DNA from: Candidatus Poseidoniaceae archaeon
GTDB lineage: Archaea > Thermoplasmatota > Poseidoniia > Poseidoniales > Poseidoniaceae
Direction: 5' to 3'
Assembly: GCA_938084675.1 (NCBI GenBank)
Contig: CALKGM010000026.1
Coordinates: forward strand, 1-64,000
Length of the DNA stretch: 64,000 bases
Part shown: one piece after another, positions 32,311 to 34,741 of the stretch
Numbering within the stretch: the stretch's first letter is position 1
Layout of the letters: every line of letters begins with the position of its first letter
The notes under the pieces: generated by a model
What the model was told of the DNA's origin: nothing
Databases searched by the model: none
The model's input: only the letters and a program-made list of their open reading frames with translations
Position numbers and translations under genes: made by a program

Positions 32311-33363
32311 ATGGCTCTTGGACCGGGTGACCACGAAGTGCGGAAATTACAGTCAACGGGTGGCAGTACGTTCACGTTGAGCCTTCCAAAGCCCTGGATC
32401 CTCGAGCAGCAGTTGAAATCTCGTGATTCACTCCGAATTGATTGGAGACCTAGTGGTGCATTAAGAGTCACTCCTCTGGACATGGCAACATCTCTTGAGA
32501 AGCACGTATACTTCAATTTTGATACCCTTCCGGAAAACAGTCTTCATGACCATTTGATGGGCGCATACATCTCCGGTGCTGACCTGATAACCATTGAATT
32601 TGAGGAAGGGGGTCGTCAATCATTAAATCATCCAATTCGGCGGTTTCTGCGAGCAACGCGGGGTTTTGAAATAATAGATGAAAGAGAAACACGTATTGAC
32701 TTGCGCTGCCTTCTAAATGCGGGAGACATGCCCCTCCATTCGAGTCTCAACCGTATGTATCTCCAAGTAACATCACTGATGAGAGACGTCATTAGTGTAT
32801 TTGAGGGAGGAGATAAGGAATTTTTCAGCGATGCGGAAGAACGAGAAAGTGAAGTCGACGCATTGCTGTATTTGATTGAACGGCAAGTTCGGATCTTGTT
32901 AGATTCTCACATGGTGGCGACAAAACTGAACCTTACACGAACTCAGGCTCTTGAATATGCCAATCTAGCCCGATGTCTAGAGCGTATGATGGACCACGCA
33001 TTTACCATGACGCAATTCGTTGTTGAATACCCACATCTCATCAACCCACATACCAGAGAAAGTCCGATTTACCATGTGCCGGAATGGCAGTCAGCATTGA
33101 AGGAATTGATGATTAACATACGGACGAGAGATTCAACGCGAATTGAAGAGGCCCGTCATCAATTGAAAGCTCTCCAAGAAACGCTTCTCGCCTATGAGCA
33201 CACATTACTGAGCAAAAAGGGAACCAACCAGTGGATGGCGCAAAACTTGAGCCTGTCGGAATCTGTGCGTCGTCTGTGCGCATATTCTCGCGATTTCGGA
33301 GAAATCCTCCTCAATATGAAGATTTCAACCGAAATGATGCGGGTTCGTGAAGTGGTGTTGTAA
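32311..33363 (+). CDS. PhoU-domain regulator with N-terminal AbrB/SpoVT-like domain
   Basis: 350 residues. The N-terminus (EVRKLQSTGGSTFTLSLPKPWILEQQLKSRDSLRIDWRPSGALRVTPL) has the swapped-hairpin AbrB-like pattern found at the start of archaeal PhoU-type regulators, a DNA-binding fold. From about residue 140, two PhoU-like three-helix bundles follow (LNRMYLQVTSLMRDVISVFEGG ... SEVDALLYLIERQVRILL ... ARCLERMMDHAFTMTQFV). Family members are phosphate-uptake regulators. Placement back-to-back with the phosphate transporter supports control of that gene and of itself through the shared promoter. The mRNA is probably leaderless. Confidence 0.8.
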   Translation: MALGPGDHEVRKLQSTGGSTFTLSLPKPWILEQQLKSRDSLRIDWRPSGALRVTPLDMATSLEKHVYFNFDTLPENSLHDHLMGAYISGADLITIEFEEGGRQSLNHPIRRFLRATRGFEIIDERETRIDLRCLLNAGDMPLHSSLNRMYLQVTSLMRDVISVFEGGDKEFFSDAEERESEVDALLYLIERQVRILLDSHMVATKLNLTRTQALEYANLARCLERMMDHAFTMTQFVVEYPHLINPHTRESPIYHVPEWQSALKELMINIRTRDSTRIEEARHQLKALQETLLAYEHTLLSKKGTNQWMAQNLSLSESVRRLCAYSRDFGEILLNMKISTEMMRVREVVL

Positions 33364-33470
33364 AATACAGTTGGTTTATTTTAAACACCTATGTGTTGGC
33401 GAATTCACCGCTGATTGATATAGGGCGGAGTGCAACTATAACATGAGAAACAACTCAGAAGATGAGCACT

Positions 33471-33635
33471 ATGGACAAAGAATTGGAAACCTACGTAGAA
33501 TTGACGATGACGAGCCAAAAATACCGAAGCGGTATCTTTGGTTCAATGCTTGACCGCCTTGCAACAGCCATTGCATTTTATCGCAGTGGCGTTGACAATC
33601 GTGGAGTTTACCACGCACGGAAGGGGGCGTACTGA
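33471..33635 (+). CDS. Microprotein A (54 aa), paralogue of the following ORF
   Basis: Missed by the ORF track. From ATG 33471 it reads MDKELETYVELTMTSQKYRSGIFGS, then a helical segment with a basic end (HARKGAY). Its first 25 residues align without gaps to the next ORF with 13 identities, which is the main evidence that it is coding. The stop codon is immediately followed by the ATG of that ORF. An in-frame ATG lies at 33462. A second overlapping frame from ATG 33443 (36 codons, 23 nt after a TATA-like GATATAG) also exists but shows no paralogy. Function unknown. Confidence 0.5.
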   Translation: MDKELETYVELTMTSQKYRSGIFGSMLDRLATAIAFYRSGVDNRGVYHARKGAY

Positions 33636-33752
33636 ATGGACGACTATCTCGAGTCCTACGTTGATCAGGCCATGAATGCCCAAGTGCTTCGCAACGGTAT
33701 CTTCCGTTCTTCACCACTTTCCTGGGTCAAGGGCCTTTTCTCTAAGAAGTAA
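33636..33752 (+). CDS. Microprotein B (38 aa), paralogue of the preceding ORF
   Basis: Reads MDDYLESYVDQAMNAQVLRNGIFRS and ends with the basic, possibly amphipathic SWVKGLFSKK. The ATG abuts the stop of microprotein A, and the shared pattern MD-x-x-LE-x-YV-x3-M-x2-Q-x2-R-x-GIF-x-S shows common descent. The AlkB-like hydroxylase gene begins 38 bases downstream, so the three may be cotranscribed. No known family recognised. Confidence 0.5.
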   Translation: MDDYLESYVDQAMNAQVLRNGIFRSSPLSWVKGLFSKK

Positions 33753-33790
33753 GGATAGGTTTTACAAGAACCGTCAGATTGTTTTTATCG

Positions 33791-34741
33791 ATGAGATGGC
33801 GATGGTTCCCTCACCTCTCGGGTCTCATAACCCCGCTAGTATCACTTGTTGGGCTTTGGCTTGGAGGTTGGTGGATGGGTTTAACACTCATCCTACTGTT
33901 AGCCATATATCCGCTGCTTGATACGCTTCTTGGATTTGATGAGCAAACCGATCCGCTTCAAGAAGGGTTACCTTACAACGTCATTCTTCACCTTCATGGA
34001 GTCCTCGTTCCGTTGACGGTTTGCGTACTTTTATGGCGTATCTCTGTTGATGGTTTGACGTCATTTACTGGGCTTGGAATCCTTTCAGTGGGCCTCAGCA
34101 GTGGTGCATCGGGGATCGTTTCTGCACACGAGCTTGGACACCGTAAACCCCGTTCTGGAAGTTGGTGGCTGGCTCGACTCAGTTTGTTTTCTGTTCTTTA
34201 TTTGCACTTCACAACCGAACACAACCATACCCATCACAAGCATTGGGCAAAGAAAATCGACCCCACCTCGTCTCCATTAGGAAGAAGTGTATACCGGCAT
34301 TTCATTACCACCATACCGCTTCAAGTCCGAGGTGCTTATCGTGCACGACCAGTAGATACACGACGGTCGTTGATGCTTGAAATCGTGTTCCTTGTTGCAC
34401 TCTATGCTGTCAATCCTGAATGGTTGGTAGCCTTCGTTGGTCAAGCCTTCATCGCCGTGTTCCTTCTTGAGTTTGTGAACTACCTTCAGCACCATGGGTT
34501 ATTGCGCGAAGACGGGGAGCGCGCTGGTGCGCAACATGCCTGGGAAAGCCGTCACCGTTTGTCCCGTTGGACGTTGCTTGAATTACCGTTACACCCGGCC
34601 CATCATATGAAGTCCAGCACTCCGTACCATCATCTCAAAACTCATGATGATGCTCCACAACTTCCCCACGGATACTATGTTATGTTCCTGCTGGCGCTGG
34701 TCCCACCATTGTTCAATCGGGCCCTCAGAAACCGCGTTTGA
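33791..34741 (+). CDS. AlkB-like membrane di-iron hydroxylase (alkane 1-monooxygenase/desaturase superfamily)
   Basis: 316 residues from ATG 33791 (MRWRWFPHL); the track's TTG is 4 codons upstream. An integral membrane protein whose histidine clusters match alkane monooxygenase in content and order: SAHELGHRKP, TTEHNHTHHKHWAKKIDPTSSPLG, FVNYLQHHGLLRE (cf. NYxEHYG) and ELPLHPAHHMKSSTPYHHL. These bind the two irons. The enzyme would hydroxylate an alkane or another lipid-like chain using an electron donor such as rubredoxin, none of which is seen nearby. It is shorter than typical bacterial AlkB (about 400 residues). The true substrate is unproven. Confidence 0.75.
   Translation: MRWRWFPHLSGLITPLVSLVGLWLGGWWMGLTLILLLAIYPLLDTLLGFDEQTDPLQEGLPYNVILHLHGVLVPLTVCVLLWRISVDGLTSFTGLGILSVGLSSGASGIVSAHELGHRKPRSGSWWLARLSLFSVLYLHFTTEHNHTHHKHWAKKIDPTSSPLGRSVYRHFITTIPLQVRGAYRARPVDTRRSLMLEIVFLVALYAVNPEWLVAFVGQAFIAVFLLEFVNYLQHHGLLREDGERAGAQHAWESRHRLSRWTLLELPLHPAHHMKSSTPYHHLKTHDDAPQLPHGYYVMFLLALVPPLFNRALRNRV

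Follow-up and report, generated by a model that had tools for sequence, protein, structure and literature searches.

Two abutting open reading frames, which we call P1 and P2, were analysed in a stretch of 64,000 nucleotides from a Candidatus Poseidoniaceae archaeon (contig CALKGM010000026.1, positions 1 to 64,000; referred to below as the window). On the evidence of sequence comparison, P1 and P2 are genuine protein-coding genes under purifying selection. They are paralogous, belong to a microprotein family that we found only in the order Poseidoniales, and are preceded by a conserved promoter-like element of their own. The features of the locus are:

33384 to 33448, forward strand: promoter/operator-like element, consisting of a palindrome, ACACCTATGTGT, then TTGGC, TTCACC and the TATA-like sequence TTGATATAG (33415-33423)
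33471 to 33635, forward strand: P1, a microprotein of 54 amino acids (ATG at 33471, TGA at 33633-33635), with an acidic N-terminal helix (MDKELETYV...), an R-S-G-I-F motif and a basic AIAFYRSGVDNRG tail
33636 to 33752, forward strand: P2, a 38-amino acid paralogue of P1 (ATG at 33636, TAA at 33750-33752), with an acidic N-terminal helix as in P1 and a short basic amphipathic tail, SPLSWVKGLFSKK
33760 to 33767, forward strand: TATA-like box, TTTTACAA, 31-24 bases before the start of the AlkB-like gene
33791 to 34741, forward strand: AlkB-like membrane monooxygenase of 316 amino acids (PF00487, E = 5.2e-16)

A preliminary description of this DNA had reported two tiny ORFs of 54 and 38 codons joined as TGA then ATG, with 13 identities in an ungapped alignment of their first 25 residues. 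The coordinates, frames and sizes were right, as was the identity count, and in 200,000 shuffles of P2 none reached 13 identities with P1 (the maximum was 9). The description of P1 and P2 as a pair of paralogous, conserved microproteins is therefore supported. An in-frame ATG at 33462 could provide an alternative start for P1, although nearly all relatives begin at the MD.. codon instead. In both proteins residues 1-17 carry a net charge of about -4 and the remainder about +4. The two can be told apart by E4/T7 in P1 versus Y4/S-R7 in P2, although the P1 sequences behind these diagnostic sites were themselves retrieved with an MDxEL pattern; the search of named genomes used P1 only, so that its set is likewise biased to MDxEL-type P1. 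AF2 models contained helices only, at low to moderate confidence: a helix at residues 3-39 in P1 (mean pLDDT 63), and no confident interface in a model of the joined read-through form, P1-W-P2 (mean pLDDT 46). The predicted tryptic peptides of the pair include ELETYVELTMTSQK, LATAIAFYR and MDDYLESYVDQAMNAQVLR.

When related genomes were searched by tblastn, P1 and P2 were each recovered in 22 out of 59, in the expected order and with the expected spacing. Frameshifts and stop codons in relatives had been named as grounds for rejecting the genes; both frames were open in the relatives, with no frameshift or internal stop. A codon alignment of 37 sequences, which supersedes an earlier ungapped estimate, gave a median dN/dS of 0.13 for P1 and 0.22 for P2 (over 62 and 91 pairs, respectively, with usable dS), indicating the purifying selection for which the preliminary description had proposed to look. 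Codon position 3 was the most divergent, and comparison with the nearest relative yielded dS values of 0.37 and 0.42 for P1 and P2, with a dN of 0.05 in both cases. In frames +1 and +2, pN/pS was about 1 or above, so that the coding signature was confined to the stated frame. It had also been suggested that conservation might be better explained by the overlapping frame from 33443; however, this frame was interrupted or lacked a start in most relatives, where P1 stays intact. One relative, AH-273-O19 (L254), is not labelled as a MAG in the title of its record, which argues against a binning artefact.

The junction between the two genes differs between genera. In the window, and in its genus, the TGA of P1 abuts the ATG of P2, in frame and with 0 nt between them, whereas part of genus g4 has one extra codon (TAA ATA ATG) and genera g18 and g3 have an overlap of 1 or 4 nt. 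In much of the window's genus P1 ends in AGG AGG ACG ATT TGA ATG, and in relatives a ribosome-binding site for P2, AGGAGG, sits within P1 just before the P2 ATG; at this position the window has GGGGG, reading GGAAGGGGGCG. We considered whether P1 and P2 might be a single gene expressed by stop-codon readthrough, and rejected this, given that the P1 stop codon is TGA or TAA in relatives, and that the spacing is -4, -1, 0 or +3 nt between genera. Because they abut or overlap with variable spacing and frame, P1 and P2 are two coupled cistrons rather than a readthrough gene.

The roughly 90 bases upstream of P1 include a conserved element, ACACCT(A/T)TGTGTTGGC, followed by TTCACC and TTGATATAGG, which in alignments of 24-28 species had 15 columns that were invariant over 24 species. 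A sequence-only profile of the element had one match in its own genome (E = 1.9e-17), and in related genomes it scored strongly at the microprotein locus only, other matches being weak. The microprotein gene thus seems to be under its own, single-site control. A simple palindrome pattern, used to look for a regulon, showed no enrichment relative to its control. Before the microprotein gene of the sister family and of genus g3 there is a related pattern, TAAAATGCACC..ATTCATATA. The obvious candidate for a regulator in the sister family is a divergent gene of the HxlR type. At three sister-family loci (L157, L159 and L161), a row of HTH regulators (HxlR and others) is divergent from the microprotein gene.

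With a first profile, the family was detected in 157 of 319 genomes. A wider, class-wide profile found it in 204 of 340 (~60%), representing 17 of 25 genera, and every match was in the order Poseidoniales. In a sample of the phylum 89 of 390 genomes were positive, each of them from one of the order's two families, the second of which we infer to be Thalassarchaeaceae (subgroups as given in PMC9258230). No members were found in the other Thermoplasmatota in the search set, and a viral contig collection contained no relatives of the microproteins.

The two-gene form is not the only one. Some lineages retain a single microprotein gene, which at L251 and L254 is a chimera matching P1 at residues 3-13 (11/11) and then P2 at residues 14-23 (8/10) and in the P2 tail, as expected from deletion between repeats. 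The sister family has a pair of smaller ORFs that abut, one for an acidic N-peptide of 22-32 amino acids (for example, MDKWLENWVDEIMENWNDEVIS) and one for a basic C-peptide (for example, MSLFEIVVRAMADCRAPPWSEYPRRK); some genera of that family have the two fused, in g13 as one ORF of 51-55 amino acids. The C-peptide resembles the tail of P1 (AIADYRA..), and the P1 C-terminus is also conserved. The net charges of the split peptides are -3 to -8 (N-peptide) and +2 to +5 (C-peptide), and the existence of split and fused modules of opposite charge suggests that the modules may be in physical contact.

In the first family the microproteins occupy a slot with the order TYW1-like gene, PitA-like phosphate permease, PhoU-like protein, microproteins, then AlkB and/or ABC genes (the TYW1 and PitA labels being assigned from sequence, not by library search). 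The ABC genes, which follow in several genera, encode an ABC ATPase, a 1206-amino acid FtsX permease and a second ATPase; at L136 (5957-9577) and equivalent loci, this FtsX-type permease has a pentapeptide-repeat stretch at around residues 845-909 and two flanking ABC ATPases. In the window, 32311-33363 encodes a PhoU-domain protein with a weakly AbrB/MazE-like N-terminus, beside the divergent PitA-like permease. A small cluster encoding a ThiF/E1-like protein, a 207-amino acid protein (no Pfam match, JAB-like by eye) and an 81-amino acid protein is found near the microprotein locus in several genera (L145, 1481-3584; L086, 1305-3408). In the sister family the microproteins lie between the HxlR regulator and FadB, the latter being convergent.

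As the preliminary description had stated, the AlkB-like gene starts (ATG at 33791) 38 bases after the P2 stop codon. Judged by its sequence, its product is a true relative of AlkB, matching alkane 1-monooxygenase (PDB 8sbb/8f6t) with an E value of 1e-32 and having the histidine boxes HELGH, EHNHTHH, NYLQHH and HPAHH; alkB has been reported earlier in this lineage (PMC9535955). The sequence at the position of its TATA-like box, TTTACAA or TTTACAT, is kept in most of the genus, and the box coincides with the promoter-like AT peak position of the genome, so that AlkB is probably transcribed on its own. Across the window, the AT content before ORF starts is highest at -27, and an SD-like motif is present for only 17 of 52 ORFs, which suggests that leaderless transcripts are frequent.

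The preliminary description had proposed that the microproteins act with the AlkB-like enzyme, and had suggested co-occurrence with its gene as a check. Among 117 genomes with listed positions, AlkB followed the microproteins directly in 59 and at a distance of 150-4000 bases in 7, and lay upstream of them in 15; in 13 it was on a different contig and in 23 it was not detected, these last two classes being inflated by the incompleteness of MAGs. It follows the microproteins directly in all 19 members of the window's genus that carry them. However, two genomes of genus g6 keep the microproteins without a detectable AlkB, and at the second-family loci that we examined AlkB never adjoins them. 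AlkB itself is present in 21 of the order's 22 genera, frequently at a different site from the microproteins. The tie to AlkB is therefore one of gene order in about half of the genomes rather than a rule; adjacency is not constant, and the proposed joint action is not supported. The most likely relation of AlkB to the microproteins is that of a syntenic neighbour rather than an obligate partner.

These results bear on the idea that P1 and P2 serve the adjoining hydroxylase as accessory or regulatory subunits. Their position directly upstream of AlkB throughout the window's genus and in half of the tally would fit, and the amphipathic tail of P2 could lie on the membrane, but we consider this unlikely, because in many genomes with microproteins the enzyme is absent, elsewhere or upstream, because other genera have an ABC transporter or a different gene in the downstream position, and because AlkB has its own promoter-like box. 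The same box, together with the lack of any match in Rfam, also counts against control of the downstream gene through translation of P1 and P2 as leader peptides (uORFs), an explanation suggested by ORFs that are tiny, lie directly upstream of larger genes and follow a conserved 5' element. The amino acid sequence of P1 and P2 is under purifying selection, and the downstream gene varies by genus, the sister family having a convergent one (FadB), making this still less probable.

Two coupled small ORFs with acidic and basic parts and their own palindromic operator might also recall a type II-like toxin-antitoxin pair or a defence module. We think this very improbable, since P1 and P2 are paralogues of each other, often single or fused, are inherited vertically with a near-constant place across a taxonomic family, and are not found in the viral collection, with isolated weak matches only in PADLOC, PHROG and Pfam. 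We would attach equally little weight to the idea that P1 and P2 are secreted, as a two-peptide signal or as precursors of the RiPP type, by way of the ABC transporter that frequently follows. The paralogy, the conserved N-terminal helix with more variable C-termini, and the ABC ATPase, FtsX permease and second ATPase that follow in several genera would all be in keeping with such a role. However, neither peptide has an evident signal peptide or double-glycine (GG) site, the permease is of the FtsX rather than the C39-type exporter class, there is no constant modifying enzyme, the transporter is not the adjoining gene in the sister family, and conservation extends to the C-terminus of P1.

The reading that we prefer, and judge about as likely to be right as wrong, is that P1 and P2 form a two-part helical adaptor for a common partner, an adaptor that is specific to the order, regulated independently, coupled in translation and probably heteromeric. 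Coupled translation would yield P1 and P2 in roughly equal amounts, and the two might associate via their acidic and basic helices, as the split and fused forms suggest. The amphipathic tail of P2 may rest on the membrane surface, and the complex would bind a partner common to Poseidoniales, a possibility raised by the retention of the microproteins regardless of whether they are followed by AlkB, by an ABC transporter or by neither of these. Against the adaptor, several lineages do with one copy, and acidic and basic halves are common in small proteins. A more far-reaching version, in which a Poseidoniales-specific heteromeric micro-complex, its modules repeatedly split and fused, regulates a core process and its own single-site promoter, appears doubtful to us.

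Neither Pfam nor NCBIfam contained a match for P1 or P2. Over 21 members, Pfam, PADLOC and PHROG gave isolated weak matches only, the best in PADLOC having an E value of 0.003 in 2 members. No convincing relative was found in the PDB, where we attributed a match to 12 residues of an ABC ATPase (E = 0.12) to chance, and Rfam contained no RNA match. The family is named in none of the libraries searched. Being spread across Poseidoniales with a private conserved promoter, it points to a lineage-specific function, and the occurrence of split and fused versions, some with ORFs of only 22 residues, provides a natural test of the evolution of very small proteins and of interaction between modules. 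Poseidoniales lack cultured representatives, and are described as the most abundant planktonic archaea of the surface ocean (PMC6461757).

As regards known systems, the likeness to AlkB (PDB 8sbb, 8f6t) belongs to the neighbouring gene and not to the microproteins. Small regulatory or accessory subunits of membrane enzymes are a general class, with which P1 and P2 share the form of a tiny helical protein encoded beside a membrane enzyme; unlike these, P1 and P2 have no evident transmembrane helix, and the adjoining enzyme is not constant. Because many lineage-specific small families exist (PMC11364881), the kind of family is already known. Like families in smORF catalogues such as GMSC (PMC11364881), P1 and P2 have fewer than 60 amino acids, are easily missed in annotation, are conserved within one lineage and are without a known domain. 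What is unusual is the combination of a private promoter with an architecture of two parts, split or fused: the tandem paralogue pair, the split and fused modules and the private conserved promoter are specific features of the P1/P2 family.
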